NCBI GenBank assembly: GCA_034190875.2
Contig: CM067354.1
Coordinates: 43,505,275 to 43,569,274 of the forward strand
DNA: 64,000 nucleotides
Source of the DNA: Urechis unicinctus
Taxonomy: Eukaryota; Annelida; Polychaeta; Xenopneusta; Urechidae
Direction of reading: 5' to 3'
Numbering within the stretch: the stretch's first letter is position 1; each line of letters begins with the position of its first letter. The notes under the pieces are model-generated. The model ran no database searches, was not told the origin of the DNA, and was given only the letters and a program-made list of their open reading frames with translations. A program made the translations under genes and the position numbers. Below, in pieces: positions 4,670 through 62,470 of the stretch.

Positions 4670-4784
4670 ATCGCTTGGGGTAGACCACCATTGGGAGAGG
4701 CTATAGGGCAGACCAGGTTTTCTGGGGCAGACCAATGTATCGCTTGCTTGGTGTAGACCAATGGATAGGGCAGACCAATGGATT

Positions 4785-27078: not shown

Positions 27079-27318
<240 letters not shown>

Positions 27319-31689: not shown

Positions 31690-32130
31690 AGGGGCTATCA
31701 TCAAAAGGTTATTAACTCACAACAACATTTCATAACACAGCCGATAGATAGTATTTGATACCAAGGAACGCTTTGTAATACAACACAATTGGATACTGTA
31801 ATAATATGCATCATTAACCAGAATATTTTTTCGAATATGTTGGGAAGCAGCGGTAGAGTATCGACTAGGTTGCTTTAGGGCATGAGGGTACTATTACTTT
31901 GGAGATTGGATGTAGGGCTCTGCATTGCCTCTGATTGCCCTCTTACAAATACAATCTGTCAGATGTAAATAATCGCCTACATCCGGCACCAGTTATAGAA
32001 CAGCACATATTGCTTTTGCAGTGATATTGCTATAGAGAGTGTGGGGGGAAGAGGAGAACTAGGTAAGTGCGACAAGAGAGGAGACTATCGGAGAGGAATC
32101 AGTCAGTTACGAGCTTAACAGGGGTAATTT
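31690..32130 (+). repeat. Repeat R1, copy C (mirror partner of copy H)
   Basis: The only R1 copy with its protein-like frame on the plus strand. It is closest to the copy at 61680-62470: both contain CTCTGCATTGCCTCTGATTG and ACAGCC-ATAGATAGTATTTGAT. It lies ~1 kb downstream of, and convergent with, KCNMB copy 1, just as copy H does for KCNMB copy 2. So it is probably part of the same inverted duplication. Confidence 0.65.
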
Positions 32131-33123
32131 AGTCAATGATGGAGCGCTTACACAGTATTATAATATCACTATTGTATATAAAATATTTCATTCGCAAACA
32201 GCATAACATTCTAATTTGCAGTGACCTTAGTATTGTCGCCTACTTTACCTCCCATTCATGCCCTATCGGCAATTTAATCATTCCAATTCATTACTAATTA
32301 CGAAACCTGAAGGCTCACATTTTGCTTTCTAGACCGAAGCCAAAGTCGTTCCATAATATTTTTGTCTGTGACATCCATATGCAGTAAAAAATTCCTTACT
32401 GACAGACAGAAATAATATAACCCAATACGAGTAAAACCTATCCCATATAAAATTGTTATGTATTTAACCGACCTATTCATTTAGGCATAAAGATGTTTTT
32501 TTCGATATGCATTTTCCTACAAACATCAAAAGAATTTTGTGCTGGATCTGAAATACATTTAATTTTGTAATATATAACCAAACGTGTTAAAGATTGTCAT
32601 ATTATTTACTATTCATATGCTTAACGGGAATGTTTTATGATGAACAGTGCGTGATGTGGGGATGATCCCCGCTTCAATGTCAACATCAACAAGAAATATT
32701 TGCAGATTGGCCTTATCTTTTTATTCTTGTAAGGGAATATTTACTGATACATTGAAAGGTGTTGAGATGATTTGTGCAATAGGAGCGACGGGGTGACTGA
32801 CTAGATTTGAATATCATATGGCGACATGTTATGCTTGAAGATGCGATATGGAGACATACATTGACACATAAATAACTACATATACTCTGTTCCCCAAGCA
32901 AGTCCAATATGATGTAAATACTCCCTTATTCGTTAAAAGTGCACCATTATATTGTGTACATATTCGCCTGTTGAAGCAAATACCAGCCTTCATTCAAGAA
33001 ACGTATACTTAAATGCTGTAATCATATTCAGCTGGTGTTTGTCTGCATGGAGAATAACGAGTAAAAGATCAAAGTTGATAAACCCTGTCTATCATGGTCA
33101 ATATAAGCGCCGCCTGTTCCCGA

Positions 33124-33129
33124 TTTATT
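33124..33129 (-). promoter_or_regulatory. Possible polyadenylation signal, KCNMB copy 1
   Basis: AATAAA on the minus strand about 30 bases after the stop codon. The same place in copy 2 reads AGTAAA. A site so close to the stop would give a very short 3' UTR, so the true signal may lie further on. Confidence 0.3.
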
Positions 33130-33158
33130 TTAGCGCATGCGTCAAAGCGTTTATGACT

Positions 33159-34550
33159 TCATGTCAGCTCACACCCGCGGATCCTATATAGCAGACTGAT
33201 AAGCGTAAATGAGAGAAGAAAAACGAAAGAGGTCCATAGCATCCCGTGTAACACGTGATACAGACGATATCGACGTATCCTGATCACCTCGTTTGGTTTA
33301 TGCGGGTTATGGAGACAATGCAAGGTGTCGTTGGACAGAGCAAACTTCCGGGCAAACTGACGAACTGTCTCCCTGTTCTCGGATTCTGAACTCTGACAGC
33401 GGGGGTAGAATGAACACTGAAAAAACCGCAAATTTACTACACATAACGTAATGAATATGCACAAATGGCCTATGCAGTCGAGCTGTTATGTTGTCAAACG
33501 AGCATTAACATATTGTTTGTCAACAAAAGTGATAGAAATATATGCATTGCACGTGAATTATAATAACTATTATGATTTTTTTTTTTATGTGCATTACTGG
33601 TATCAATTTTAGGCAGATAAAAATGTCGCTCCCATAACGGTGTTTGTATGTCTTTTTGCCCAACAGTCTGTCATATGTACTAGACCTATGATCATTTTGT
33701 ATCCTTTTCTGCAATTATGAGATAAGGAACCTCCGTTAATGGTTACATTACGCTGAGATAATCACTCCACAGTCTCAAAGTGCTTTGTGATATATTTAAA
33801 AATTGTTGTCCATAACGTTTTTTTCACTTATCCCGAATGTAATCATTTTCGATTGTTTTCAACATTATCTTAAGCAGGCTATGGACAGAGATTTGGCATT
33901 CGCCCATTATCAATAATTTATCTGTTCTTGGCGATTGCATTTATTAGTCCCGTCATTATCAAATTCTTGATCGATTATTAATAATACACAAATTCAAGGT
34001 AGTTTACCTTTTTATGCAGTGCCCTTTCATCATTGGCCAGGTACGCCTCGTGGGTAATGTTACTGGTATCCGTGAAATTGACAGTAATGATAATACACGG
34101 ATAATGTGATGAGCAGCCTTTACCACACGAACACCTCTCCTCACCTGTAGCGTACACCATACCTACACTAGTACATTGTGTCTTGACAAACTGAGCTGCT
34201 CTCATGTATGGGGCAGTGACGAGAAACGAGATCACCATCAGAGACACGAGACTGCAAAGAATCACGAGGGATAAAAATAGATACAGACACACGCTGCATG
34301 GCCGAGATGTTATGCATCCTTTGATGCTTCCAGTGACGGTATAATATCGGTCCACATCTTCAACTGTCATTCTAAACGTCGGTATATCCTGTGTAAAGTG
34401 CACAGGTAAAGGGTGCTCTTCGTTGGCATAGGACCCAGTGTCATGGTCGCAGTTTTCAATCACTAAAGGTGTATCTTCTACTAAAGCTCGGTTCTCTTGC
34501 GTGGTATTTTCATCAATTTGGCAAAACGCACCTTCCTCGCTGTCTTCCAT
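33159..34550 (-). CDS. BK channel beta-subunit-like protein, copy 1 (two exons: 34550-34008, 33416-33159)
   Basis: Predicted auxiliary subunit of the large-conductance calcium-activated potassium (Slo1/BK) channel, KCNMB family, in the plasma membrane. The 266 residues comprise an acidic cytosolic N-terminus (1-~85), membrane helix 1 (~86-113), an extracellular loop, membrane helix 2 (~233-258) and a short tail. The loop has eight cysteines (126, 140, 142, 146, 152, 182, 188, 215), the number that forms four disulfides in vertebrate beta subunits. It also has the family pattern CS(F/Y)xPxC and an HNPHKPNEV stretch akin to NQHQRPDDV, and N-glycosylation sequons at 159, 164 and 210. Exon 1 ends AAG|GTAAAC; exon 2 starts after TTTTTTCAG; phase 0, intron 591 bp. 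The N-terminus is longer than usual in vertebrates and lacks the FIW inactivation motif. Copy 2 differs at residue 228 (Ile here, Lys there). Confidence 0.85.
33417..34007 (-). other. Intron of KCNMB copy 1
   Basis: GT-AG intron, 591 bp. Its first several hundred bases share little with the copy 2 intron. Only the last ~60 bases before the acceptor (TTTGTGCATATTCAT, then the TTGCGGTTT tract) match. The divergence contrasts with the near-identity of exon 1. Confidence 0.8.
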
Positions 34551-34582
34551 GTCTGATATTCATCGGATTATTTTTCTAATCT

Positions 34583-34627
34583 TCAATCAACATTTGTTGC
34601 TTTATTACCTGATTCTGCAGCGGGCAT
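34583..34627 (-). CDS. Upstream 14-codon ORF in the KCNMB copy 1 leader
   Basis: The first ATG of the predicted transcript opens MPAAESGNKATNVD and stops 32 bases before the main ATG. It is also present in copy 2. It could damp translation of the main frame. Alternatively the GTAATAAAG inside it might serve as a splice donor of a 5' UTR intron. Confidence 0.4.
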   Translation of the reverse strand: MPAAESGNKATNVD

Positions 34628-34689
34628 GTTGCTGTGCAAGGCGAGGATATGAAAGAGCTTGTCTGCGAATGCCCCGGCGTGGCTGCTGC

Positions 34690-34724
34690 AGTGACAGCTT
34701 CTAGTTCGGTGTGGCGCTTATATA
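34690..34724 (-). promoter_or_regulatory. Core promoter of KCNMB copy 1: TATA box and initiator
   Basis: TATATAAG on the minus strand at 34724-34717, with TCACT at 34694-34690 placing +1 about 32 bases from the start of the TATA box, the canonical spacing. Predicted 5' UTR of ~142 bases. The surroundings are GC-rich (CTGCAGCAGGGC). Confidence 0.6.
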
Positions 34725-34838
34725 CGCCCTGCAGCAGGGCACCGACCAAGTCGCGATGCTGTGGAGCCAGCAGGGGGCGAAATAATCAGCAACACACATA
34801 TACGCTTTCTCGACCCCTACAAGTTACCATCTTGAGAA

Positions 34839-35323
34839 CATGACACTGGTTGCTCGCGAGATGTCATGACCAACTGATGCTTTTGAATGGATAATTCTTT
34901 GTCATGGTGATAGTCCAGGAAAAACGCCCCTTTGATAAGTACGAATGCTGAGAGCATGTATGTATTCAATGAAATAAAATGATGATGATATTTTCTTATG
35001 CCTAGAAGAATAAACACATTGATTACAATATTAAATTGGTACATTCTATTACGTGCGTGTTTTCTCAATACTTCAAACTATAACGAGCTATTGTCGCTAA
35101 AACGTCAATTCTAGATCCAGTGTTTTAGTGGCAACACTTGCAAGAAGCAAATCAAACAATGGTTTGACTTGCACTGAATTAGATGATACAAAGAGCGCTA
35201 GGAAATTTACACAAACTCTATTGAATTTATCGCCCTCAATAAAGAAAAGTGTCATACAAATAAAGAAATAATAATGAATATGGTAATGAAGATATTTCGG
35301 TTGCTGCTGATAATGATGACGAC

Positions 35324-35357
<34 letters not shown>

Positions 35358-36169
35358 TACCAGTATCACAAACGCGAATAGAATGACCACTACTGGCATG
35401 CACAGCGCCCGCAACCAACCATACACGCAAATTTAAACACACACCTCGCCACTTCAGGCAAATGCTTGGAACCAACGCCGCTAGCTTCCCGAACTGTGCC
35501 GGCAGTTAACGATTGTCAATATTGGGGCATTCTCATACTAGTAGCTTAATTTACATAGCGTTATATTAACACCCCTGTTTGTTAAGGAACTCAAAGTACG
35601 GACGCTGGCATTATCGTCCATGAAGTGTTATTTACAACGTTTTATCAAAAACAGTAAATCGCAAAAAGACTGGGTTCTTTAAGGTGCAAATAGAGAGATG
35701 ACACAATGAATAGTTACAAAGGTGATATATTGAACGTAGGATCATTTCGTTTGCAAGCCTTTATTTATTTATGTTTCTCTAATAAATATTGCACTATTCG
35801 GGTTTACGCTATGACAGATCACAATGCAATATTCGACATGCTCGCACATTGAGGAGTCATTCGCTTTCGCTACCTGTAAAAGCGTGGACTTAAATACAGT
35901 ATATCAATTATAAGTGAATAACTCGATACCAAAAGCTATTTCCTATTTATTTGTACTCTTTCCCTGGATATGTTGATATATACTGCGCTGTCAATTTAGA
36001 ATTATCATCATTTAATCCATTATTTATATTATTTTATATCTTCATAAGCTCCCCACAAACAATGCACTTACTATGTAACTGGCCCTTAGACCGGATCAAA
36101 TTTGTTTCCATTTCGCTGCTCATATTGGACTTTCTTTTAACGTTACAGATACATCATAAGTAAATAACC
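34839..36169. other. Noncoding interval with a (GAT)n repeat
   Basis: Similarity to the other KCNMB locus stops near 34838. Apart from the (GAT)n tract at 35309-35357, whose reverse frames give His or Ser runs, I see nothing. Confidence 0.5.
35309..35357. repeat. (GAT)n trinucleotide microsatellite
   Basis: About sixteen GAT/GAC units. His- or Ser-run frames across it are artefacts. Confidence 0.95.
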
Positions 36170-36400
36170 GATTTCTTAGATGTGCCGGCCAGTCACAATA
36201 GCTTTGTTCTTCGGTTGCTGCCCGCACCAAAATGAGGAGGTAATGGCGTTTAGTAAGATTAACGTGTCGAGCCTATCAGTAATGCGACATAAGACACTCG
36301 ACGGTCCTAAAAATCCCAAACAACGCTTGCTCTGTTCGTTTGCATTTAGGGATGCATTTGCCGAGTGAGCTATCAGAGTGCGTTGCACGATCAGAGGTAA
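36170..36400 (+). repeat. Repeat segment R5, copy 2
   Basis: Matches ~27520-27720: GTGC(C/T)GGCCAGTCA, AATG(A)GGAGGTAAT-like and GCGA(C/T)ATAAGACA-T landmarks in the same order. The possible LINE-tail frame of the first copy is not preserved here. Confidence 0.6.
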
Positions 36401-38089
36401 GCGAGTAAAAATGATGACGCTAAGTGGTATATTGTGTTGTTCTCGTTACAAGATCTTATCGCTTAGTCTACTGAGGAGAAGCAGCTTTCGTCGCGGCGTA
36501 CAGACGGTTGTTTTGATAACCAATCGGTAAGGATCAATACGGCTTTGTTTAAACAATAAATGACAGTATGTTAGAGCGACGTGAAGTTACAACGTGCGTT
36601 TTTGCTGTCTTATCAAGGAATGGTTCAAATATGTACTTCTAGTCTAGCCTTAAGCTAGCTGAATCAGAGCGGTTATGTATTTACCAATCTTGTGCGTATG
36701 ACGAAGTTGTTACGTCTTATTGCTAATACTTGGTCGAATACGTGACTCCTTAATAACAAGTATTAAGTAGATATTAATACAGCCCTTCATTACACAACAA
36801 GCACTTATAGTTATAATTTATTTCAACGAAAGCCTATGTTTGCATTGGTCCATATGCACTAATATAACAATTTTACCTTATTGTCAGAAAGTTGCATCAT
36901 CATTTCAAGCATTCATTAGAAGCTCATACCTTCTGTTGATGTTTCCCTTTGCATAGAGTCATAATATAATCACGATCAGGCGGTTGTCGGCTTACTTGAG
37001 GACGAGTAGCCTTTAGCTTTTTTTAAACTTCGTGTCAACATCATACTATTAGCTTAGTTTAGTTAGATAGAAAAAACTATCAGCAATTCAGAATACAATT
37101 TGTTATAGAATGGGATACCTTCGTGTGGAAATAATAAAAAGAACATAGGCTGTAAATTTGACTAAATCATTTTTAAATAGCAACCAGTATTGTGAAACAA
37201 ACAAAGTTTAACAAACATACGTACATGCATACATGATAACAAACGGGGCGAGTTAATAATCAGTATCAGACATAACATTTGAACATACGACAAACGTTGG
37301 CCTAATTTAATGGTGATTTCAAATTATCAACTCCCTTTAGACAGCAGCATTTAAAGGTTTAAAGAGTTTTTCATATCAATTTCAGAGCAAGCCGCTCAAA
37401 ATCCTATATGTGTGTGTTCCAAGGCTTTAAATGTTAGCCAATCAATCATATCTGCTTGCAATAACTTTACTGATGTTTTGCATTCTCTTCGGGCAGGATG
37501 ATCCACCATGAATGCATTCAGCGACTTTTATTCTATGTTTATACGATGTTTATACTTTTTAAGAATGTAAATGCATGCGAACTTGGCGTATTGGCTTTTC
37601 CAATCGAACATTTGAATCTCTTTTGTTCTTACATCTGACAGTGACTGGTGATTTTAGTGGGCCCTTCTTATGAACGTTTTATTATTGTGCATTCGGTGTT
37701 AGCCAATGCGCAACATGCAGCATGAATGCCAAATCAGCAAGAGCATCGCACCTAAAGATCATGTAGCACAGGACACGAAACTAATCATAATTTTCTGACG
37801 AATTTTTCTATGATAGATGTAATACATAAACTATATACTTGACGGCCATTCGAACCCAGTGTTTACAAATTCTATCATACAATACAATAACGACAAAGCA
37901 CAAAGACCCTGTTGGGACGGAAAGGCTTCATTCTGTTATTATTCCACTAGGTTAATGCTTTTAGCACGGTCGATGACTTACTTTGCATGTTAGTATCACA
38001 GACTCATATTATGGTTTCACTAATTCTTCCAGTGTTAGAACTTCCTTGGCTGCTACTTTTCGGAGTAGCTCGTTCAGCTTATTTACTAG
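36401..38089. other. Noncoding interval
   Basis: AT-rich, no credible frame, no recognised repeat or RNA. Confidence 0.5.
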
Positions 38090-38420
38090 ATACATTTGAA
38101 TCTTTGCTGACTAGCTCTTCGCCGTCTATTCTCCTTAACTAGCTCTTATATTTTCATCTTGACTAGCTTGTCACCCGTTGTAGCAATATCACATTGTCAT
38201 ATTGAAATGATTTACAACAGAGGCAATCAGCAGTCCTATTATTGTTTCATGATTTATCCTTTATAACGAAGCGCATCTGACAGAATGTGTTTGTAGAAGC
38301 TCCAACGGGGACAATATAGAGCCCTACGTCCAATCTCCAATGTATTGTTACACTCTTGCGATAGGGAGTCGATAACTTGCCGCGATTAATAAATCCACAA
38401 ATAACATTCTGTAATACGTC
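38090..38420 (-). repeat. Repeat R1, copy D
   Basis: On the minus strand one frame reads WRLDVGLYIVPVGASTNTFC and on to QMRFVIKDK before a stop, close to copies B and H. It is flanked on its right by segments shared with copy H (TTTGGAATTCTGTAACGGC at 38952, compare ~62650). Confidence 0.65.
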
Positions 38421-39699
38421 TTGCAAGCTCTACTTGTGTTGTGTTATAGTATCAGCAAATAGTGCTCTGTTCCCAATGGCAAGCTATCGAGCGCCGAGAC
38501 GCTGTCAATATATAACAAGAAGGTATGGCATGGTTGGTCCGGGCTGCCTCAACTTTCCTTAATTTTCACTCAGGACATACATTGCGATAGGCGTTTCGTC
38601 GTTATTCGTGTATTTTCCGCGAATAAATAATCGGTGTGCGATTTTCGTATTTGATCATGAGCAGGTCCGCCACAGCGCCAGAATGATGCGTGTACATACA
38701 AAAGAGCACAATTACCACGTTACATTGTTTGTAGCGTGTATGATTTGTGTATGTTCACATTACGTTATCATTATTTAGATGCTAGAATATTAACTATACT
38801 TAAACACGGTAAAGGGTGGAAAAAACGGTGATTGAGAGAGCAAGAAGTATCTATGACGCGATATATAATGGGTGTACGAACAGTCCCATGATGAACGTAT
38901 ATTTGCGGTACCCGAGTTACACTACGTCTTATAACCAGAAAGCTTGGATGTTTTTGGAATTCTGTAACGGCTTAATTACTGCAATTTACCGCTTCAAATG
39001 AGGCTTATAGTTTCTAACACAGGATATCGTATTTACTTTTTACCCTATGTAGGAAATGTAATGTCATCGTATCAAGTGCTTAACACAGCAGTTGTCTGCG
39101 TTGTAGTAAGAATGGATATTTGGCAAGGGACATCACGATCAAAACGACGATCTCATGTTGCAAAGAATAAATAAGGATCGAAGGTGGATCATTCAATACA
39201 AAAATCACCGTGAGTCGTATGCAACTGACTTATCAAGGCAATTGCTGTCAAATTCTACATTGAAAGGATTCATCGTCATCTGTTTATGGCCCATGCAACT
39301 TGTCCACATAAATAACGTATTGCAGAGCAAAATAAAGTCGAAAAGAGCAAAAGCATTCCAGCAAATATATTTCTGAGCCAACTTTGTATCTCGACCTCAA
39401 TTATTTCTTCATTATTTAACGTCAGGTGATCCATCAGTTTGAACGAGTGATAAGAGTACATTGTGCAAGCAGTGATGTAACTTTAGCAAATAACACCTGC
39501 AGAAAGAACTGATATAGATAATACGTTTAAATACGTGAAAAGGTAGGCTGATTCACTGACAGCAAAGTAAGCATTGTTACGGGAGCAATACTGTTGCGCT
39601 GTTCTGAATAGACATAGAAATAGAGGAGTGTAAGGAACATAATTCAAAACAGCTTGTTAGCTGCAACAAATCCGTGTTTTTATATGCTTGTTTTTGCTG

Positions 39700-39850
39700 C
39701 TTCTTAGAATTAAGTTGACTGACTATAAAATGCTAACGTTAAACTTATTCCACGATTCCAAATTTTCTTGTAGATTACACAATAACTCCGGTCCTCTGGT
39801 CGTCAATACACAGACGCCAGTGATCACACAAGCATTCACGCACCATACAA
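39700..39850 (+). repeat. Repeat segment R4, weak third copy
   Basis: CACAATAACTCCGGTCCTCTGGTCGTCAATACACAGACGCCAG aligns with parts of 26460-26520 and 30010-30075; diverged. Confidence 0.45.
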
Positions 39851-40919: not shown

Positions 40920-41245
40920 ATATTAGTTTGCTGCGTCGCCTGTTAACCCACAGATTGTTGGTTCGATTCCAAGGTGTGAAAACCTGATGATCACATTCAA
41001 TGGCGGTCCCATCTCTGAAAGGGGACGCACCCAACCCTGTAGCTCAAAAGTACCATGCTGGACCTTTGACCCAGCGGCGTGTAGTTCGCAGCCCGGTCTA
41101 GGCAACAAGTTTGTACCAAGTGAGCGTTGGCACTTAAGGAGAGCTGTCAAAGCATCACAGTCATCTTCATCCATCACCTCTGCGATATCACCTCGTTGTT
41201 GAACGTGAAGTTAAACCCCAATAATACCATTATCATTAACGTACA
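40920..41245 (+). mobile_element. tRNA-derived SINE-like element
   Basis: A perfect RNA polymerase III B box, GGTTCGATTCC, lies at 40950-40960. It is preceded by a degenerate tRNA-like head (GTCGCCTGTTAACCC) and followed by ~250 bp of GC-richer body. The end, GTTAAACCCCAATAATACC, looks like a LINE-type 3' tail with AAT trimers. The head, body and AAT-like tail together suggest a SINE mobilised by a CR1/L2-clade LINE. The A box is poor, and reading frames across it are shadows. Confidence 0.5.
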
Positions 41246-47290: not shown

Positions 47291-47438
<148 letters not shown>

Positions 47439-48229: not shown

Positions 48230-50366
48230 TAATAATAATAATAATAATGTCATTTATTTTGGGAGCGCAACATTATATGCATTTCTATGCGCTTGAGAGT
48301 TCATGCACGTTCTTTTGGGAAAAGTAGTGTTTTAAGACGTTTCTTGAAAGCCTCGATGCATTGCGCCTGGCGGAGGCTGTCGTCAAGATTGTTCCACAGC
48401 CGTGGCGCAACAGTCCTGAAAGATCTTTCGCCAAAAGCCCTTCTCGCCCGCGGGACTGTCAAGAGTGCTGTTGCGCTTGCAGAACGGAGTGCTCGCACTG
48501 AAACATGCGGGTTGAGGAGGGTTGCGAGGTACTTCGGTGCACCAAGATTGTGTGTGACCCTAAACACCACCAGGAGCATCTTATACACAATTCTTACATG
48601 CACGGGGAGCCAGTGAAGGGTCTTGAGTATGGGGGTGATGTGATCAAGTCGAGTCGTGAGGTAACGAGAGCGTCCACCACTCCCTTGCTCGTCTCTTTAT
48701 CCAGTATTGGCCGAATTCTTCTGATTTTTCTGATGTTGCAGTACATCGCTCGCGTTACCTGCACCACCTGAGTGTCCATGCGCATGGAGCGATCAAACAT
48801 AGCACCAAGGTTTCTCACACATTACAAAGCGCGTATCGATGCGTCACCTACACTGACACATGGGTCAAAGTCTAGTACACTATTGATGTAGTGCTTAGGG
48901 GCCACAGCCAGAAGCTCAATCTTCTCATCGTTGAGCATGAGTTTATTGCGTGACATCCACACTCTAACTTCGCTGGCGCATAATTCAAGGGATCTAATGG
49001 CCTGCCGAAGGGACAGCTGATCACCGAGCCTGAACCTTGTGTAGACCTGCGTGTCGTCTGCGTAGCTATGTCTGAGTAGAGAGTGGCTGTGAATGACACA
49101 GGCTAAAGGCAAGACATAACACAGGAAGAGTAGCGGGCCTAGGACACTGCCCTGTGGCACTCCAGTTTTCAAGGCGATCACATCCGATTCTTCTCCGAGA
49201 ACTGCGACACTCTGTGATCTGTCTTCAAGATAGCTCTTATTCCATCTGAGAGCTGTTCCCCGCAGACCGATGATGGCGAATAGTCGGTCAATAAGGATGG
49301 AGTGGTCTACAGTGTCGAACGCTGCCAACATGTCCATCAACAGCAGGAGAACCCCTTTACCTTCATCCAGTGCGACATCAATGTCATCCTTCACTCGGAG
49401 CAGCGCCGTCTCCACGCTGTGACCTCTCCTGTAGGCCGACTGTAGGGATCAAACAAACCATTGCTGGTCATGTGCTCAGTTAGACGACTAGCAACTATTC
49501 TCTCAATAAGCTTCCCCAGGAATGCCAGGTTCGACACTGGTCTGTAGTTCTTTAAGATGTTAGTGTCTAGACCATGCTTTTTGAGCAGAGGAGTGACAAT
49601 CCCTTTTTTAAGACTAGTCGGTACTGTCCCTGACATGAGAGACGCATTTACACATCTAGTCATCACCGGAGCCAGTACCTGCAAGACTTTCTCATCCTTC
49701 AGCAGCCAAGTTGGCAATGGGTCCAGAGAGCAGGATTTCGTGGGGCACTTCTTGATCAAGGCAATGACTTCATCACAGGTAACTGCAGAAAAGGACACCA
49801 GCAGCTCCCCTGCAAGTTTACAGTCTGGTAGTACCCTACCATCATCCACATCAACTGAGTTCATCATCTGACGGATACCCTCAACCTTGTCATGGAAAAA
49901 GTTCACAAAGGTGTTTGCCAGCCCAGCGCTGCTGTTTGCGATAGGTAATACAGTTGTCGTGGGCTGCAACAGTCCATTCACAGTCCTGAATGTGGCACGA
50001 ACATCACCCTCACTCAGCCTTTGACGGTAGTACCTCTTCTTTGCATCATCCACAAGTCGCACCACTTCCTTCTGCTGGGCTTGCAGCATCTGCAAGTGCA
50101 CTGTAAGGCTAGTTTTGCTAGTTCTTTCAAACTGGCGGCGGACTTTCCGCGCCTCGTGGATGGTGTCATTATACCAAGTTTTTCTCCCACCCTGCTTAGG
50201 CGAAACCAGACAGAGAGGAACATGCAGGTTCATAACAGCCAGCACTGTCCTGACATAGCTCTCTGCACATGCACCAGCTTGTGTTGGTGGTGGGTTTGTG
50301 GCAAGTGCTTGGTGAAGATCTCTGGAGAAACTGTCCACATCAATCTTTTGGAGCTTCCTCACCTTT
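48230..50366 (-). mobile_element. 5'-truncated CR1/L2-type non-LTR retrotransposon
   Basis: Comparison of U1/U2 with U3 gives the insertion edges. The left flank ends GCATATTTAT at 48230 and the right flank resumes TGCATGGTATTGCACA at 50367; in U3 the same sequences are at ~55432 and 56169. Read on the minus strand, the element ends with a GCGC-containing 3' UTR and an (ATT)n tail (48231-48248), typical of CR1/L2 elements. It starts inside the linker between endonuclease and reverse transcriptase, so the endonuclease is absent. The 736 bp present in U3 between the two flanks are missing here. Confidence 0.9.
48301..50366 (-). pseudogene. CR1/L2-type reverse transcriptase, broken ORF2
   Basis: Reverse transcriptase of a non-LTR retrotransposon, truncated and inactivated. 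The minus frame from ~50363 carries the post-endonuclease linker (WYNDTIHEARKVRR) and the fingers motif NYRPVSNL. A one-base deletion near 49440 shifts the frame. The next frame carries AFDTVDHSIL (motif A), GVPQGSVLGPLLF (motif B) and YADD at 49053-49064 (catalytic motif C). An in-frame TAA at 48822-48824 follows, then VRNLGAMFD. After TSRLDLI about 35 residues usual in the family are missing and the frame shifts. The last frame (48301-48603) has the LHWLPV...VYKMLL and LWNNLDDSLRQ...FKKRLKTLLF tail. The N-terminal MCNTM of the open frame is encoded by flanking host repeat. Confidence 0.92.
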
Positions 50367-53300
50367 TGCATGGTATTGCACATCGAGTTACACCACCGAG
50401 TGTTTGACTATAATGCTGAATGCTATCCCTTAGATATTAACAAGGGATGTGTAATCAAACTCGATGTATTGAGGCGATGTATACTAGTAAAATTAGGTCG
50501 TTAACCTTACCTTGTCATCACTGAAGACATTTCGATCCCAATTTCACTAACATATGTTTTAAGTAAGTCATGGAGGAGGCATAGACGTAATCGGGTTCGA
50601 AAAGCTCCTTATACGAGCGAATGCTATCCTAGATGAAAAGCTGTTTTATGTGGTAACAGCTGTTACGATACGATACATTATGTATCTATATTTGATTTCA
50701 GCATTTGATGAATTAGTGTAGACTGCTTAAGCGTCTGCAAGCCCTAAGATCGTTAATTCTTTTCTACACTGTCACACTTACATAAAGCATCGATATATTT
50801 ATCTAATACACTAAATATCTGGTATGCATCTAAGCAGTAACTCAAAAAGTGGCGCTGAATAGGTGTGTGGTTGGAATTTGAACACTTTCAAATGGCTGAA
50901 GACAAAGTAACCAAGCATTGGTGAAGCATTGCAAGTGAATTATATAATTCCATGATTCATTATACAGAGCGATAAGTGAAGGTATATGTTGAAATTTCTA
51001 TACTATAGTTAGTTGTTGAATTAGTCACCAACTTGCGCAGGCAATGGCTAGAGTGAAGATGTCATTTTGAAACCTTTCAATAACAATTCATTAGACACTA
51101 GGCAACCCTTAAAATCTTTTGAGGATGTTTCTTTGCTAGCTTAATGGGAACAAAATGCAGATGCAAATATTTTATGTAGTTTTTTGGGTTGGACGAAATA
51201 TTTGTTGTCGCTAAAAGTAATCATATGGTATTAATCAGCTTTCAGATAGTAATGTGTGCTTCAACTTCGGTAGGTGCAATACTTGAGATATACAAGGGTC
51301 TTACATATATACATGCGTTGTGGTAAATGGTAGAACCAAAGTAATAAGTTCATTACGCCTAATTGCTAAACTACATAAGGCACCTTTCGATCAGCAAATA
51401 GTTTCGCTGACATTGTGAATTGCTCATGTGACATTTTGACTGTGATATCAAGAACTTCTCCTTTGCCGTATTTGTCGTCAGGTTATCAATTAATGATAGG
51501 CACAAACATACTATTCGAAAGGAAAACTGTAGTATGGTTTTATTATGTATGCCTTCAGATAACAGAATATGACAGGATTTACTGTAATAAAAAAATGCAA
51601 TTATGGTTAATTTCGACTTAGATCGCAATGTTGCTCGCAAATATTAGATGTTATTAACATACATACATCGGGCTATTCGAACACAAAATGAATGTAAAGT
51701 TATGTCCCTAGAGGTTTCTAGCATTACTCATTACTCATATCATTCATAATGCCAGAAATGTAACGTGCATCAATTGTGGTAAAGGGATTACACGAAAAGA
51801 GGCTCACAAAAGAAAGTAGCATTAATCTCAATGCATGACATTGGAGATGATTGGTGCTCTTTGCGGCTAATATGATTGGTAATTGCGTTACCTAAATATG
51901 ATAAAATTAAACTGATATTCCATAAAAGAAACAGTTGCTGTTACCAAATGAGCTTCCGAATATCCCAGATGCGACTCGATGCATCTCGGATATGTTTCGC
52001 TATCCCGGATATGGTCAATCTGCGGTGTCCAGGACAGGTCACGACTTTGTTGTCCAAGTTCTCATTATTGGTAAAACGCTTTTGTAAATACAACGTTTCT
52101 TTGTCATACATCCAGATAATAGCAATTCAAGTTAAAATGCATTTTATATAGAGACGAATCATTTTTTGAATGCGTCTGCATTCCCTTAACGAATTTTAAA
52201 ACAGCAATGCTTTTGGTATGCTATTCCCTATATGTATTCTTTAAATATTCCCTTATGCTAACGAGTGTTACAAATATTATGATGTTGTCATTTTGCCCTT
52301 CCCTGTATACACTTTTCCCATAACAAATTAACCCACTTCAGCACCAGATTGCCTCTGAAACCGACTTTTAACCAGACCATGACAGCTCTTTTTACATCCC
52401 TGATAAAAAATTATTGCCTAAATCCTGTGTGAGCTATAGAACTGTCATGATTGCTTATGCGGTGAAATCAGTTGAACAGTGTGGCTTTGCTAGAGCGGAT
52501 TTGAAGTAACATGCTGGTCTACTCGCAATGAAGGCATCCAGTTATGAATGCTGAAAGGCGAGGTGTCGGTCGGTGGGGATAAATCAACGATTATTGCCCT
52601 ATATAGAATCAGGTGACTTTCCCCAAAACCCGTCATCAAAGCACTGCATTTTTGAATGCATGTCAAATTAGGATGTTTTAACAAAATTAGCCTAAAACTT
52701 GCCATTTATGAAGGAAATAAAAGAGACTCAAATATTTCATTAAAAACTTACATCAGTAAAATTCGCAAGAAGGAATGTTGATATCCTTAAAATTATAAAC
52801 ATCAATGAGTAATAGTCACAGAAGTCATTCATAGCTGGCTTACCGCCAAGAAGTAAATACAAAACATCAGTTCATTGACTATCCTTCTTGGATACAGTGC
52901 CAATCTGACTAGAACCTCAATGTGTCGCTCAATCCTAGACTCACTTTTCATTAATTACCTCTTCACTGACAAAATCCTCTACGATTGACTCTTTCTTTCA
53001 CCCAAACATCTGTACCAATAACACCTTATTTATTGAGTTGATGTAGCCGCAAAACCAATTTATGCTATACTATAACAGAAGCAGGATTTACGCGACCACT
53101 TACATGTTTAACTTAAATAACGTTTTGTATCTGACAGAGGCAATACAGAGCCCTACAACCAACCTTCAATGTGATATAAACTTCATGCCCTAGAGCCACC
53201 GTGTCAATAACGTACTTTTATAACCGATACAAAAACGCCAGCATGACAAATAGCACGGCCAATCTCCGCCTGTGTTGTGCTTCATTGCGTTCCGTAATGT

Positions 53301-55432
53301 CGGTCATCTGAGACTATCTGTCTATTGTTCCATGTTGTATGGGGTAACTATTTATGTGTAGCGTCTATACATGAGATATCATAATTGCAACATTACTGCC
53401 AAATAGAAATGCTTAATTAGAGTAATAAAAGCTCTAACACATTGATAGATTATTCAAAATAGCAGTAAGTTGTATGTCTGCTCATTGCATTATTATAAGC
53501 TGGTTTTATTAATCATAATTACATTGACACCGGACGAGAAAGGTGAAGCATGTCATTCATCAATTTGGAAACATTTGGAATCGTCCAATGAGAAAAGGTT
53601 GACACATGCTTCCTACCATTGGATATTATATTATCATTTTAATCAGAAGAATGTCATGGTCTTTTACAAACACTAGCACGATGTCAAATTTATTATTGTT
53701 ATCTTTTTATCAACATTAATGCGTCAAGCATTCCTTACCTACCGTATTGAATGGACTGATAATGGCCCTTGAGGATAGTACCATAGATGTGACTTGTAGT
53801 CTTGGAGTCATGCACATTTATAACATGCCATATGAATGTACGCAGGCGACGTCATTATCCCATTCGAGATTGCCCAAAACATGACTATATTCTATGATTG
53901 TGGAAACTCTTGTCACGCACTGTTGTCTATAACCAGGCGAATTCTAATAATATCGCAACGTCACATGATTTAGACCGCCAGGGTATATCTTAGTATGGAT
54001 ATTGATGTTTTGGCGGATATCTAAGAATTTCATGAATTCTTCTTCATTTGTTGTGATATAAAGCAGTATATATAAGTTAAAAACATATTTGTTTATGAAT
54101 CCTTCTGGAATCTTTTGTCAAGATGCGAAGACCAATGAATAAGATCAATGGATGAGAATATGCTTAACATCGCTGAGTAGGGCATAATCGATGATTTCTT
54201 AGTTTCGCAGAGATATATGCTTTTCCATGGCTTACAATCAGTATCATGCTCAGCGCCCCAGTTAGGTAGGACTACGAGTCATCACAATTAGCGCCAACCA
54301 GGAGAGTATTTTCAGGTGGATTGGGGTAATTTTGGCTTACTTCGGCAGCTTCCCCACGATCGTCTGTATATCATGCACGAATAAATCAAGGCTTACTATC
54401 TTTTACTAATTAAGTATGCCCAACTAATCAATTTGTGACATAATTTCTATATTAAAAGAATGTATTACAAGGCAAGTTAGTGCCATGCTGAGGATTTGGG
54501 AAGGTTAATATACAGGCTTATTGCTTTGTATGAGGAAAATGTGCGATAGCAAAAGCTTAAATTTGATTACTAAGGCTTGAACACACACTGACCAAACCGT
54601 GGCTTAGTACAGACGAGGTCGATAATCTATTTATTGTTAAATCTGGCGCAATTATGAAATGGTGATTGGAAAGTATAATGGCAGCATTTTTCCGTGCCAT
54701 ATGACATATCATATATAGCGCAGTGTTGCAGCTATGGCGGAGTTGTTGCGTCTTATCGATGAGGGTTGTGATATGGGACAGCATTTAAATAATAATGCCA
54801 GAATTTCTGTAAATTGCAATAATTTGTATGTGATTCCTACGTTCTAGAATCACTACATGTTGCCGTGTGGCACATTAATTAAACAATAGAAAAACAAAAT
54901 CAAGCTTTTTGTGTGGTCATCACACGACTTGTTCAATAATCATAATGCAACAGTAGTTATATATCAATTTGAGATATGGCATCGCCATCGTCGTTAGGCT
55001 ATTTTTAGTGCCGTTAATTCCATCAGCAATGGTATAAATAGAGCGGATATCGATTCTTTTGCGATATACTGATATATCCTGTTGCCATAGTTTAACGGTT
55101 GATTCATAGTTCATATGTTACAAAAAGGCACCCTAAATATAACAGCCAGCTACAGGGGTATTGGCACATATCATGCGTATCATCTATATGTATTTTAGAT
55201 GTACACAGCTCAGCAATCAAAGATGCTTTTGATGAACATTTGTCTGATTTATCACATAACAAATTAGTAGTTTACTGCTCTCGACATGTCATTAAGACAG
55301 ATGCCAATATAAGCACGACTCATGTACCTCTGAGTAGAAGAAATACATTATAGTCGGATACTTTTAATGGTATGCTTCATTTCACTATACATCAGTTCTT
55401 ATTCTAATATGTATAATTTACGCATATTTATC
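50367..55432 (+). repeat. Tandem array unit U2 (~5.1 kb)
   Basis: Collinear copy of U1 (see pairs there). It lacks the first ~280-740 bp of the unit as seen in U1 and U3, apparently lost around the retrotransposon insertion. It holds R1 copy F and no intact gene. Confidence 0.8.
52925..53510 (-). repeat. Repeat R1, copy F (in U2)
   Basis: Same core deletion as copies E and G (the AP(T/S)NT segment is absent, GACAGAGGCAATACAGAGCC). This groups the three array copies apart from A-D and H. No usable frame. Confidence 0.65.
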
Positions 55433-56664
55433 GGCGGTAGATGTCTAACGCAGGGAAATGTTTGGTACTAATAAACAGTATCACAAAGCAAATGCATTAT
55501 CAAAAAACAAACAAACACATAAACATAAGCAATGGTGGATGGATTGTGGTCATGTATTCCTATAAAGCTTGGCGGCATTATGTGTAATCTGATGATGAGA
55601 TCAGTCGACGCAACTAAGAGCAAATAACATTGCTTCGGGCCATCAGTGTAAATTGGGCGTGTTTTCCAAGACGTGCATGTGTATTTATCACAAAACAATC
55701 AAGGGCCCATTATCGCAAGTGACAAATGTGTATTGAATGCGTCCAATGGTATTGTTTTAGAAATGCCATTCTGTCGTCATGAAGATACTGTCCCATTATC
55801 AAAGCCATGCGCTTGTGTGTATGTACATTCTCGAAGGTTCATTGTACCATTTGATATGCAAAACAAATATTGTATACTTAATCTATTTCCATGTCTGTGT
55901 ATTCGTTATATGGGACAATGCACGTCACAAATATTGCAATCTACCACATGTGAATAATCCGGTTCTTTTGCCATCATCTCTTTAGGGATATAGGGGATAT
56001 CGGACGCAAGATTACCAAGCGAGATTGTGTTCTGCATCAATGAGGCACAAAATGCAATCTACATTGTATGAACTCAGCTAGGCCAAACCAATTTGGGAAC
56101 TCACAGTACGGATTAATACCGGCTAGCAACTTTCTGTCACTCCACATTATCGTTGATCGACTAGGTCGTGCATGGTATTGCACATCGAGTTACACCACCG
56201 GTGTTTGACTATGATGCTGAATGTTTTAAGTACATATTAACAAAAAAAGGGTAATCAAAATCGATGTAAAAAACTATGTTATCTAGTAAAATTTGGTTAT
56301 TAACCTCACCTTGTCATCACTGAGAACAAATATCGAAGCCAATTGCACTAACGTTAGTTTTAAAAAGTCATGGGGGTGATAAACAGTGTTTCGATGCACT
56401 TTAAATGCAGTTTACAGCGGCCCATAAATACATTCATGAACAGCAAAATCCTGATTACTATTCGGCGTCTCGCATACAGATAACCAGATGATGAAATTAA
56501 ATATCTATAAACCAATACTTTCCTGACCTTTTAAGCATGGCTTATCGAATGTACTTTGCGGTAAGTACCATATTTAAGAAACGAAGCGTGACGTAATCGG
56601 GTTCGAAATCCTCCTTATACGAGCAAATCCGAAAACTTGAGGTACCAAATGGTACCGAATGATG

Positions 56665-56932
<268 letters not shown>

Positions 56933-57184
56933 TTCAATAACAAGGCGCCAATATTTTTTGTTCTGTTCGCTTGCATATACAGAACATTCTCCGAATAATG
57001 ACATTAGCTAAGTATCTGTGAAATATTGTCTTACGTTCAATAGACATAATTTTTCGAATGATTTGTCTGATATCATAGCTGGCTTACCACCAAGAAGTAA
57101 ATATAAAACATCAGTTCTTTGACTAGCCTTCTCGGATATAGTGCCAAACTGACTAGAACCTCAATGTGTCGCTCAATCCTAGAC

Positions 57185-57600
57185 TCACTTTTCGTTAATT
57201 ACCTCTTCACTGACTAGATCCTATCCGATTGTCTCCTCTCTCATTCACCCGAACCTGTTCTTCTTTTCCCAATGTGAGCCAGCTCATCACAACCCTCTGT
57301 AGCAATATTACATTATTTATTGAGTTGATTCTACCGCAAAACCAATCTAGGTCGTTCTATAACAGAATCAGGATGTACGCGACCATTTACATGTTTTCCT
57401 TAAATGACGATGTGCATCTGACAGAGGCAATACAAAGCCCTACAGCAAATCTTCAATGTTATATATGCCCTCATGCCCTTGAGCAACCAAGTCGATACCG
57501 TACCGATACCGTTTCATTGCGATCCGTGGTGTCCGTCATATAAGACTATTTGGCTATTGTTCTGTGTTGTAGGGGGCAACTATTTATATGTAGTGTCTTT
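57185..57600 (-). repeat. Repeat R1, copy G (in U3)
   Basis: Third array copy with the shared core deletion. Ends near 57600 at GCAACTATTTATATGTAGTGTC (compare 53350). Confidence 0.6.
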
Positions 57601-57610
57601 ACATGAAATA

Positions 57611-58717
57611 GTTAAGCTAAGACGATAATAGAGCTTTCAGAGACCCTAGTCAAGGCATCTCTCAATAAACGCGTGAACAACAACCTGAACAATAAGGTAA
57701 GGCTTTGATGAATCTTATTGAAGATATAAGGAACTTACAACCGCTTGAAAAGTTGTCTTATTATTATGTATCTGTAGCCGATATTATGGGTGAAACTGAC
57801 CCATGGCACAAAGGGGGGGGGATGGGAATAAGGAAAACAACGAATATTTTTTAATTTAAGAGTGATTGTAACAGTATAAGCTAGACTTGTCAAGATACTT
57901 CTCAGTGATAAGCAGGTGGAAGGAAAACCAAGTAAAATATAGTCGATTGTGAAAATGAAATGATGATGCAGTCTTTTGACGAGAGTGTAAGGTTGTAACA
58001 AACAAACCATTTGGACAAATAGTGAGAGTGTAAAGTTGTAACATCACACCATACTGACAAATAGTGCCATAGTCTTATGATACATTGGTGTTACTCTACC
58101 AATCTAGATTTAAAAAGTCCTTAACACATGTTACATATATAAACTCATGCCAATAAATCTTCCGTAAAGTCAGACAATGTATATAATGCACACTTTGTAT
58201 TCATTCTCCCTCCACTGCTATATTTAAGACATCACAATATACCATAATGCAGAATTGAGTCATTGAAGTTGGCAACACTTCCGTCAAAGCATTTGCGTTG
58301 TGTTCGTTTTTATATTTGCAGAGAAATCACGTTTTTTAAATGCTATTTTTGTGTAATTATACGTTTTAATTATGCAAATCTAGGAGGAAATTTGTCAGAG
58401 CCGAACCTTCACAAAGAGTCAGTGAATTCGCAACAAGCAACAAAAAAACACTCAATCATTCCAATATTTCACATGATTAAATATTATCATTGACCAATAC
58501 CAATAAAACCGGATTTGTGACAAAGGGGTGTGGCTTCATTCGATGCAAATGGCGCTATACCGTCAAAGTCAATCCATTGTGTCAGTCACCATTGTACTAT
58601 TTTGCAGATGTATTAGCACACAACGCCAGCAATTATCAAGTAACGACCTTTGTGTGACAATCACCATGGCGAAGAAATGTCTGTCACAAAAACATCGGTT
58701 AGCGATGACATTTTTTC
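57611..58717. other. Noncoding interval before KCNMB copy 2
   Basis: AT-rich, with a short G-run near 57812. Nothing recognised. Similarity to the KCNMB copy 1 locus begins only at ~58718 (CAAGATGGTAACTTGTAG). Confidence 0.5.
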
Positions 58718-58770
58718 AAGATGGTAACTTGTAGGGGTCGAGAAAGCGTGTATGTGTGCTGCTGATTATT

Positions 58771-58812
58771 TCGCCCCCCCCCCCCACCCCCAATCCCCCA
58801 ACCCCCAAACCC
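58771..58812 (+). repeat. C-rich insertion upstream of the KCNMB copy 2 promoter
   Basis: A run of C with scattered A and T, absent from the otherwise nearly identical copy 1 flank, which reads GCCCCCTGCTGG at that place. It lies ~50-90 bases upstream of the TATA box. Confidence 0.85.
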
Positions 58813-58861
58813 CTGCTGGCTCCACAGCATCGCGACTTGCTCGGTGCCCTGCTGCAGGGCG

Positions 58862-58896
58862 TATATAAGCGCCACACCGAACTAGAAGCTGTCACT
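58862..58896 (+). promoter_or_regulatory. Core promoter of KCNMB copy 2: TATA box and initiator
   Basis: TATATAAG at 58862-58869 and TCACT at 58892-58896, with A at 58894 as likely +1, 32 bases from the TATA start. Identical to copy 1 across this stretch. Confidence 0.6.
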
Positions 58897-58958
58897 GCAG
58901 CAGCCACGCCGGGGCATTCGCAGACAAGCTCTTTCATATCCTCGCCTTGCACAGCAAC

Positions 58959-59003
58959 ATGCCCGCTGCAGAATCAGGTAATAAAGCAACAAATGTTGAT
59001 TGA
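58959..59003 (+). CDS. Upstream 14-codon ORF in the KCNMB copy 2 leader
   Basis: The same 14-residue frame as in copy 1 (MPAAESGNKATNVD), ending 32 bases before the main ATG at 59036. Because the whole region is near-identical between copies, its presence in both is not evidence of selection. Confidence 0.4.
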   Translation: MPAAESGNKATNVD

Positions 59004-59035
59004 AGATTAGAAAAATAATCCGATGAATATCAAAC

Positions 59036-60451
59036 ATGGAAGACAGCGAGGAAGGTGCGTTTTGCCAAATTGATGAAAATACCACGCAAGAGAACCGAGC
59101 TTTAGTAGAAGATACACCTTTAGTGATTGAAAACTGCGACCATGACACTGGGTCCTATGCCAACGAAGAGCACCCTTTACCTGTGCACTTTACACAGGAT
59201 ATACCGACGTTTAGAATGACAGTTGAAGATGTGGACCGATATTATACCGTCACTGGAAGCATCAAAGGATGCATAACATCTCGGCCATGCAGCGTGTGTC
59301 TGTATCTATTTTTATCCCTCGTGATTCTTTGCAGTCTCGTGTCTCTGATGGTGATCTCGTTTCTCGTCACTGCCCCATACATGAGAGCAGCTCAGTTTGT
59401 CAAGACACAGTGTACTAGTGTAGGTATGGTGTACGCTACAGGTGAGGAGAGGTGTTCGTGTGGTAAAGGCTGCTCATCACATTATCCGTGTATTATCATT
59501 ACTGTCAATTTCACGGATACCAGTAACATTACCCACGAGGCGTACCTGGCCAATGATGAAAGGGCACTGCATAAAAAGGTATCTATTATCAACTATCGAT
59601 CGTGAATCTAAATGCGATGGATCTCATTTAAGAGATCGCAAAAAGACGAGCAGTTATCAATCATGTGCTCATTTCTAGATTTTGTCTGCAGACAGATTAA
59701 AATATATTTCGGAAAGATTATTTCCAAGAATATCAAATAATTCGTTTTGCAATAAAAACGTGACAAAGAATATCAAATAAATCACGGAGACTCACTGTCA
59801 TTTTTGAACACTGTAGTGTGCTTGTCTCAGCGGAACTGAATACTCAACGAAGCTCCCTGTTATAGTAATGATAGTGACCGTGTCCATTGATCCCATTCCT
59901 TCTCTATCATATTACCAGAAAAAATTACTCAGAAACATACATGCATATTTAGAGTAGTTTTGTCTCCGCATAGAACATTTCCACACCAACATAATAATAG
60001 CTCTCTATTTCAATTAGAAATCACCAAGCAAAATCACCATTGGGGTCGCTGATGTGTATTGTGCTTTGTTGGTAATACACGGACATTATATTTACTATAA
60101 ATAGCCTTCTCTTCATCTATTTGTATCACCTTTGGAGCAGAGACTTTTGTGCATATTCATCATGTTTTGTATGAAATTGCGGTTTCTTTTCAGTGCTCCT
60201 TCTATCCTCGCTGTCAGAGTTCAGAATCCGAGAACAGGGAGACAGTTCGTCAGTTTGCCCGGAAGTTTGCTCTGTCCAACGACACCTTGCATTGTCTCCA
60301 TAACCCGCATAAACCAAACGAGGTGATCAGGAAACGTCGATATCGTCTGTATCACGTGTTACACGGGATGCTATGGACCTCTTTCGTTTTTCTTCTCTCA
60401 TTTACGCTTATCAGTCTGCTATATAGGATCCGCGGGTGTGAGCTGACATGA
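59036..60451 (+). CDS. BK channel beta-subunit-like protein, copy 2 (two exons: 59036-59578, 60194-60451)
   Basis: Second KCNMB-family gene, inverted relative to copy 1 and transcribed away from it. It has the same 266-residue architecture: acidic cytosolic N-terminus, two membrane helices (~86-113, ~233-258), and a loop with eight cysteines and three N-glycosylation sequons. The predicted role is to modulate gating of the Slo1 BK channel pore at the plasma membrane. Exon 1 (181 codons) appears identical in DNA to copy 1. Exon 2 differs by several synonymous changes and one replacement (Lys for Ile at 228, in the segment just before helix 2). Splice sites are AAG|GTATCT and TTTCTTTTCAG|TGC, phase 0, intron 615 bp. 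Both copies are intact, and mostly silent change in exon 2 suggests that both are, or were until recently, under selection. Confidence 0.85.
59579..60193 (+). other. Intron of KCNMB copy 2
   Basis: GT-AG intron, 615 bp, dissimilar to the copy 1 intron except for ~60 bases before the acceptor (TTTGTGCATATTCATCATG). Confidence 0.8.
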
Positions 60452-60775
60452 CGTCATGACATGGCAGCGCTTGAACGCTTTGACATATGCGCTGAAGTAA
60501 ATCGGGAAAAGGTGGCGCTTATGACGACTATGACGGACCATGTTGATCAATGTTGATCTTGTGCTCGGCATTCCCCATGCTGAAAAGCACTTGGTGAATA
60601 TATTTACTAAATGTAAGTGTACTTTTTAGGAGTAAAGGCTGACATTTGCTTCAACGGGTGAATATGTGCACAATATAATGGTGCACTTATAGATACTAGG
60701 GGCTAATATTAACTTCATATTGGACTTGCTTGGGGAACAGAGTATATGTAGTTAATTATGTGTCAATGCTTGTTT
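60452..60775 (+). repeat. 3' flank shared by the two KCNMB loci
   Basis: Matches the reverse complement of ~32858-33158 with indels: GTGCACAATATAATGGTGCACTT, ATATTGGACTTGCTTGGGGAAC and AGAGTATATGTAGTTA. Strong similarity fades past TGTGTCAATG at ~60770. Confidence 0.8.
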
Positions 60776-61679
60776 GCGTGTTGAAACATAAAATGTCTGC
60801 ACAATATATAGAAATCCAGCCAGATTCTGTGTCTGAATGACGCATCAAGGAGTCTATCTCCCTTTACATATCTCCAATCAGCAATCTGTAACTGTAATGC
60901 CCGGCGGGGGAAATTCCGTCGCCCCTATTGCACAAATCACCTCAACGCCTCTCTGTGTTTCATTAAATATTCCTTTGCAAGAACAACAAACCTCTCGGGA
61001 AATACAATAGGTAAAATAATCAAAAGCGAAGACCAATGCGCCCATATATCTTATTGTTGTAGACATCAAAATAAGCATCATTCCCAATATCACTGACTTT
61101 TCGTTATTTGGCTTTTCACATAAAGCATATGAATAATAGATGTTGTGACCTTCCAAGCCACTTTCAGTGATAAAAGCCAATTAATGCATTCTGCACCCAA
61201 AACAACAACTTTTTTATCAATAAACGAAATTAAATTTTTAGAAAGAAATTCCGTGGCCAAATACTGTACAATTTGATAGGAGATGTGTTGTATCTTTCCG
61301 CCAGTCTCGTTTGCATTCAGTTTATTTGTTCTAGGTAAACTTAAATGGTACTCGTGAGCAAAGCTAATGCTTCACATTGTCTGCTGATGTCACAGCCGAA
61401 TTTTGTATGGTTTTGGTAAGTTAGTCTCGTCCACTTTGGTCTGGATGTTTCCGGGTGAACACTCGGGTTTAGTATGATATACGATTTGTTATGAAGTAGG
61501 TGAGAATTTATTCACGAGATATAACGTTAGTGGCAATGTAAGAGTCACTGTCAGGTGGAATGATATGTTCTGAGTATGCTGTTTGCATAGATTAAATGTG
61601 CAACATTGCATGGGTTTATGCAGGTCATAAACTGATATGCTGCTTTTATCATAGTGTGCTAACTATAGTGTTCGCGCAT
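60776..61679. other. Noncoding interval with one unassigned open frame
   Basis: A 100-codon minus frame (60878-61180) has an ATG, two hydrophobic stretches and several cysteines, but I do not recognise it and no splice partner or promoter is apparent. Weak similarity to 32130-32860 (reverse complement) and to 45860-46000 suggests further decayed duplicate sequence. Confidence 0.4.
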
Positions 61680-62470
61680 CTAATATTCATATTTCTCCAG
61701 AACCACTGACCACCTCTTCCCTCATCTACTCCTCCGTGACTCGCCCTTTCTTGACTAGCTCTCCTGGCTATTGCTCCTCTCCCACTCGCAATTCCTTGAG
61801 TAGCTCTATCATTGGCAACCTTCTCCAGAATCAGCTCATCATTGACCAGCTCCTTTCTAACTCTCTCCTCTCCCATCACACTTAACTAGCTCTCCTCTTC
61901 CCCACGCGCACCAGGTCGTCGCGACATGCCGCACGGGGCGATACCGTTGAAATGATTCTTCCTCAAAAGAATCTATGCTGTTCTATAACTGATGCACAAT
62001 CTAGGCGATCATTTACGTGTTTTACTTTAATGACGAAGCGCATCTGACAGGTTATGTTTGTGGGAGCACAATCAGAGGCAATGCAGAGCCCTACATCCAA
62101 TCTCCACAATAAAAGTTGCCTCATGTACCTTACCGCTGCTCCTCATTATATTCAATATAAAAGATTCAGCTGAATGAGGAATATCATTGCAATGTGACGG
62201 ATGACCGATCTCCGCTTGTGTTGACATACATAGCGTTCCGTGCTATTGGGAATCAAATACTATCTATTGGCTGTATTATGAAATGTTGTTTTGGGTAAAC
62301 TCTGTGTCGGTAGTGTCCCTTCGAGCAACAAGACGAACGCCTCGTTGCTGCGTTTATAAAACACATTAGCATAATTGACATTCAAACCTTTGATGGATCA
62401 GTCAAAACAGTATGTCTTTGTGTGTTTCCTTGTTGCATTATAGCCAGCTGGTTGTATAAGTAATCATTTT
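61680..62470 (-). repeat. Repeat R1, copy H (mirror partner of copy C)
   Basis: On the minus strand one frame reads WRLDVGLCIASDCAPTNITC, then QMRFVIKVKHVNDR and ASVIEQHR before a stop, then RRII-like and DDLVRVGKRRAS. It is the longest surviving version of the R1 frame. Convergent with KCNMB copy 2, ~1.2 kb past its stop. Confidence 0.65.

Follow-up and report, generated by a model that had tools for sequence, protein, structure and literature searches.

Drosophila amylase genes form a palindrome whose concerted evolution is reported to affect the coding regions only, with the flanks evolving independently, and Drosophila Hsp70 genes are mentioned as similarly palindromic in the same source (PMC3924832). 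Caenorhabditis inverted gene pairs, such as F44E5.4/F44E5.5, are kept alike, and gene conversion has been proposed as the cause (PMC1803023). In three human gene pairs, including the inverted BMP8A/BMP8B genes about 235 kb apart, some parts are described as evolving in concert and others as diverging, in a mosaic that involves gene conversion (PMC2720389). Here we analyze a 64,000-nt stretch of Urechis unicinctus contig CM067354.1 (the window) that carries two inverted genes for predicted BK-channel beta subunits of the CaKB family. We propose that this pair arose by an old inverted duplication and that the divergently transcribed copies very probably exchanged sequence recently by ectopic (non-allelic) gene conversion. 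The window has a guanine-cytosine (GC) content of 38.4%, contains no N, and is interpreted as eukaryotic from its intron-containing genes and an animal gene family.

Both genes are complete and have two exons. Copy 1 (34776-33159, minus strand) and copy 2 (58810-60451, plus strand) are transcribed divergently, with 24,486 bp between their start codons at 34550 and 59036. The gene models, which combine open reading frames (ORFs) with splice-site consensus, give each copy a TATA-like box, an exon 1 of 543 nt, a phase-0 GT-AG intron, and an exon 2 of 258 nt including the stop codon. The preliminary description had reported that a block comprising promoter, both exons, and 3' flank recurs inverted and divergently transcribed about 24.5 kb away, which self-BLAST and the gene models confirm. 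CaKB proteins have two membrane spans flanking a cysteine-rich, glycosylatable loop. Each copy encodes 266 residues, with a single difference at position 228 (where copy 1 has Ile and copy 2 has Lys), and hydropathy peaks at residues 93-111 and 239-257 predict two membrane spans, between which lie eight cysteines (126, 140, 142, 146, 152, 182, 188, and 215) and three NxS/T sites. The CaKB profile PF03185 of Pfam matches residues 95-256 above its gathering score (80.6 bits against a cut-off of 25.1, E=1.5e-22), and solved beta2/beta4 subunits are sequence relatives (9czh, residues 86-256, E=7.4e-15; 6v22, residues 89-256, E=1.1e-14). By these sequence criteria the encoded protein is a CaKB family member and a predicted BK-channel beta subunit.

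The two copies are near-identical only in their promoter and coding parts, whereas the intron and the 3' flank have diverged strongly, a mosaic on which the preliminary description had not remarked. Pairwise alignment of the gene region yields 241 differences in 1960 aligned columns, and these are very unevenly placed. Identity reaches 224/226 in the promoter and 5' untranslated region (5'UTR), 542/543 in exon 1, and 242/243 (99.6%) from the sixth codon of exon 2 to the stop codon; it is 360 of 520 aligned columns in the intron (~69% where alignable), 11/15 in the first 15 nt of exon 2, and 241/300 (~80%) in the 300 nt after the stop. Near-identity in the first tract ends 3 nt past the donor site, and the second tract starts 15 nt into exon 2 and ends at the stop codon, 5 nt before a 15-bp indel. 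On the promoter side, the distal part (34911-34777) retains 99 of 112 aligned columns. Only two further differences fall in 34777-34835, on the upstream side of the C-rich insert in copy 2, so tract 1 may end nearer 34835. Expressed as Jukes-Cantor distances, divergence rises from 0.004 in the tracts (4 differences in 1012) to 0.23 for the 3' flank and 0.40 for the intron. Among the first five codons of exon 2, four carry silent differences, as against one of the other 261 (Fisher p=1.2e-7, with the five-codon boundary picked post hoc from the data); these 261 codons hold one replacement difference besides.

We interpret the intron and 3' flank divergence as a sign that the duplication is old, and the tract distance as a sign that the exchange is recent. 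The pattern has the features expected of conversion: sharp-edged near-identity lies inside older, diverged homologous sequence, and silent divergence is low within the tracts and high outside them. Two conversion tracts are the simplest reading of this mosaic. Selection on the protein alone would be insufficient to preserve identity at silent sites, in the 5'UTR, and around the TATA-like box. A recent inverted duplication without conversion, in which intron and flanks differ for other reasons, would account for the 99.6% identity of promoter, 5'UTR, and exon 1 and likewise of most of exon 2, but a recent copy would be uniformly alike, and here the introns are homologous yet ~31% diverged and the 3' flank ~20%; the silent changes at the start of exon 2 (codons 1-5) also date from the old divergence. 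We consider this explanation close to negligible, and the homologous but diverged intron and flank likewise rule against a very recent duplication. Replacement of one intron was also considered and is ruled out: the introns align with a score of 369.5, against 241.7 +/- 11.8 (standard deviation) and a maximum of 286 for shuffled sequences, and none of 200 shuffles reached it.

How such tracts could form follows from the layout of the locus. The inverted arms would pair with each other, and repair would use one gene as template to overwrite promoter-exon 1, along with most of exon 2, in the other. Exchange would halt at pre-existing heterology, namely the diverged intron and the indel past the stop, although the role of heterology in setting the tract ends is itself our inference. 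Strong purifying selection on the protein may have held the exons similar enough for pairing while intron and flank drifted. The edges of near-identity (just past the donor site, shortly into exon 2, and at the stop codon) also bring to mind repair of the exons from a spliced transcript or its complementary DNA (cDNA), which would leave the intron untouched. This route is disfavored because tract 1 takes in the TATA-like box and the sequence upstream of it and because both copies retain the intron; the 3' flank after the stop, moreover, is not homogenized, and a minimum of one additional DNA-templated event would have to be assumed. We regard it as highly improbable.

We infer that the partner was the opposite arm rather than a third copy, and the inverted gene 24.5 kb away is the likeliest donor. 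A distinctly unlikely alternative is that both genes were converted not by each other but by an unseen third CaKB copy at another place in the genome: the inverted neighbors are the nearest known partners, and the window is without a third copy or fragment of the gene by tblastn and by BLAST of the arms. Further CaKB matches by tblastn within the window did not exceed chance (E >= 0.3), and the gene part of the arms finds only 15-27 nt matches there, the best of which (E=0.004) is located outside the interior. Candidate extra copies or fragments in the interior were rejected, as significant arm matches there involve only the distal, R1-related part of the arms.

Self-BLAST delimits the inverted arms themselves. 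Tract 1 matches as 34005-34776 against 59581-58810 inverted (772 bp, 99.6%, gapless), followed by 32859-33465 against 60768-60146 (85.9% over 629 alignment columns) and 34773-34845 against 58778-58706 (93%). The inner edge of homology lies near 34912/58659, with an edge piece at 34915-34861 (75%, E=1.9e-4); outward from the genes, patchy homology continues as far as 31721/62290, a further collinear piece occupies 31562-31376/62577-62764 (67%, E=4e-11), and weaker collinear pieces (E=0.002 to 0.02) reach about 31073/63180. The arms are thus at least 3.5-4 kb and about 3.5-4.5 kb long, and may run past the window end. This agrees with the preliminary estimate of about 4 kb, although homology extends beyond the end at 62470 given there. 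Inward of the arms (upstream of 34900), 700 bp are not alike above shuffled sequences (score 276 against 259 +/- 13, reached by 23 of 200 shuffles), and deeper inside there is a lone 41-bp match (76%, E=0.008).

An assembly artifact was also considered: two alleles of one locus, both placed and one of them inverted (haplotype merging, as raised in the preliminary description), or exons overwritten in polishing. One assembled sequence is the sole basis of our analysis, which leaves some room for this account. Alleles usually diverge far less than Jukes-Cantor distances of 0.23-0.40, and haplotype merging is unlikely because alleles do not combine exon differences of 0.4% with flank and intron differences of 20-30%. 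The window also contains no N, the 700 bp inside the arms are not alike, and the homogenized tract extends upstream of the TATA-like box, beyond the reach of transcript-based correction. As far as the sequence goes, the artifact is contradicted, and we hold it to be very improbable.

Several considerations nonetheless weigh against conversion between the arms. The proposal rests on one assembled sequence without an outgroup, a third copy elsewhere could have been donor to both genes, and it is a somewhat awkward coincidence that tract 2 ends precisely at the stop codon. The longest identical runs (376, 192, 172, 124, and 118 columns) exceed the maximum of 105 found in 2000 column permutations, but this test treats columns alike despite uneven constraint along the gene, so that the silent-site contrast bears the argument, and that contrast has only five codons outside the tracts. 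Likewise, the 58- to 100-fold excess of flank and intron distance over tract distance presumes similar mutation rates across the region.

GC content at third codon positions is 0.49, compared with 0.33 and 0.35 in the two introns, an excess in the direction that GC-biased conversion would predict. Exons, however, are often GC-richer than introns in any case.

Upstream of the main ATG, a possible additional start was noted (34627-34553/58959-59033), consisting of an ATG and 6 1/3 codons followed by GT...AG around 56 nt. Speculatively, removal of this 56-nt stretch would join the upstream ATG in frame to the main ATG. The AG (G at 34553 in copy 1) is AA in copy 2 (59033), a change that is among the only three differences in tract 1, and such a start would thus be open to copy 1 alone. 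The upstream ATG may alternatively be viewed as opening a 14-codon upstream ORF.

Table 1. Coordinates of the gene pair, the proposed conversion tracts, and the inverted arms within the window
Feature	Position	Strand	Basis
Putative homogenized tract 1, copy 1: promoter, 5'UTR, exon 1, 3 nt of intron; 3 differences/772 bp	34005..34776	-	
Putative homogenized tract 1, copy 2	58810..59581	+	
Putative homogenized tract 2, copy 1: sixth codon of exon 2 to last base of stop; 1 difference/243 bp	33159..33401	-	
Putative homogenized tract 2, copy 2	60209..60451	+	
35-nt C-rich insert, copy 2 only, at upstream edge of tract 1	58775..58809	+	
3' flank, copy 1; 80% identity with copy 2 positions 60452 to about 60768	32859..33158	-	
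Arm 1 of inverted duplication; weaker pieces to about 31073	31376..34912	-	BLAST/alignment
Arm 2 of inverted duplication; weaker pieces to about 63180	58659..62764	+	BLAST/alignment
Coding exon 1, copy 1 (181 codons)	34008..34550	-	ORF/splice model
Coding exon 1, copy 2	59036..59578	+	ORF/splice model
Intron, copy 1, 591 nt, GT-AG, phase 0, highly divergent from copy 2 intron	33417..34007	-	
Intron, copy 2, 615 nt	59579..60193	+	
Coding exon 2, copy 1; four silent differences in first 15 nt (33402-33416)	33159..33416	-	
Coding exon 2, copy 2; first 15 nt (60194-60208) outside putative homogenized tract	60194..60451	+	
TATA-like box, copy 1	34719..34724	-	pattern match only
TATA-like box, copy 2	58862..58867	+	pattern match only
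R1 repeat copy C, in arm 1	31841..32092	-	
R1 repeat copy H, in arm 2	61901..62140	+	

R1 repeats C and H lie in the two arms and had been described as resembling each other more than other copies. We compared eight R1 copies by multiple alignment and by local alignment scores. The multiple alignment upholds the claim in that C and H share their highest identity with each other (81% over 154 columns, with runner-up values of 77% for C and 72% for H), but by local score C aligns better with G (174) than with H (162), and the closest pair overall is E-G (83%). The likeness of C and H is weakly supportive of their having been duplicated with the arms.

Inversion of the interior by the arms, as suggested in the preliminary description together with polymorphism of the pair in the species, is possible, and patchy gene conversion from arm to arm would lend indirect support to the idea that the arms recombine. 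A stronger version casts the arms as an active recombination device: exon-limited exchange would keep the protein and proximal promoter of the subunits nearly identical, and crossovers would sometimes flip the ~24 kb interior, so that both orientations would occur in the population and the promoters would face alternating distal regulatory surroundings. We view this version as unlikely. An old tandem array occupies part of the interior: the stretch at 43.0-48.2 kb aligns with those at 50.4-55.4 kb and 55.2-57.5 kb, in pieces of 67-90% identity. Between array units, an 87-bp block is 96.6% identical (48145-48230/55345-55431) while its immediate flanks are unalike, and may be either a short mobile element or a further small patch of conversion. 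Reverse-transcriptase remnants also lie inside the interior as two overlapping ORFs (48822-50407, minus strand), with an RVT_1 match of E=1.5e-20 in ORF 48822-49448 and a sub-threshold match of E=0.0033 in ORF 49391-50407. Ten selected ORFs (six at 43.6-58.0 kb, two at 40-41 kb, and two in the 4-6.6 kb element, a selection rather than every interior ORF) gave no Pfam match at or above the curated cut-off, and one sub-threshold match to Clathrin_bdg (E=0.092).

Elsewhere in the window, a 3.1-kb stretch (3893-7002) is bounded by inverted repeats (one piece of 174 alignment columns at 91% and one of 217 at 94%), among which lies a 98-bp direct match, and is perhaps a DNA transposon; three ORFs tested in it have no Pfam match at E 0.01 or 0.1. 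An ORF at 13636-14028 (minus strand) matches a zinc-finger profile below threshold (ANM3_C2H2_Zf, E=0.00069; 19.9 bits, cut-off 27). Long (TA)n arrays (142-267 bp) occupy three places, 27080-27316, 47294-47435, and 56666-56932, and a direct repeat of ~340 bp (84% identity) lies at 15688-16030/17273-17592.

If our interpretation is right, this pair offers, at a single locus, a clean case of apparent gene conversion limited to exons and proximal promoter. It would also carry an internal clock, with the old duplication recorded in intron and 3' flank and the recent exchange in exons, and it serves as a warning that exon-based trees or synonymous divergence (dS) would make the pair look brand new. 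Should crossovers between the arms occur as well, the locus would allow a test, in nature, of whether an ordinary gene pair can drive inversion. Among the titles listed by our literature search, which included the CaKB family and left many subscription papers outside its scope, none concerned this gene pair, which is no proof of novelty.

Compared with the described systems, the CaKB pair looks like a further member of the class of inverted pairs with conversion. Like Drosophila Amy-p/Amy-d, it comprises linked palindromic paralogs with homogenized coding sequence and independent flanks, as reported for the amylase genes (PMC3924832); unlike them, it appears homogenized in promoter and 5'UTR too, its tract is split by a diverged intron, it belongs to another gene family, and it is known from the sequence of one species. 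The Hsp70 pairs are also inverted neighbors with ectopic gene conversion (PMC3924832), and the evidence there includes silent polymorphisms that the paralogs share, whereas the CaKB pair is a single sequence. More generally, the Drosophila systems have comparative or population proof of conversion, and our case rests on one sequence. The Caenorhabditis pairs resemble ours in being divergently oriented paralogs with near-identical stretches for which conversion is proposed, but they have a spacer of 126 bp and nearly perfect arms, as opposed to a spacer of ~23.7 kb and patchy identity here (PMC1803023). Human BMP8A/BMP8B shares with our locus both the inverted arrangement and a mosaic with gene conversion, and differs in that its intron is homogenized together with the exons, as the search rule of the study that describes it demanded, while the CaKB intron is excluded (PMC2720389).

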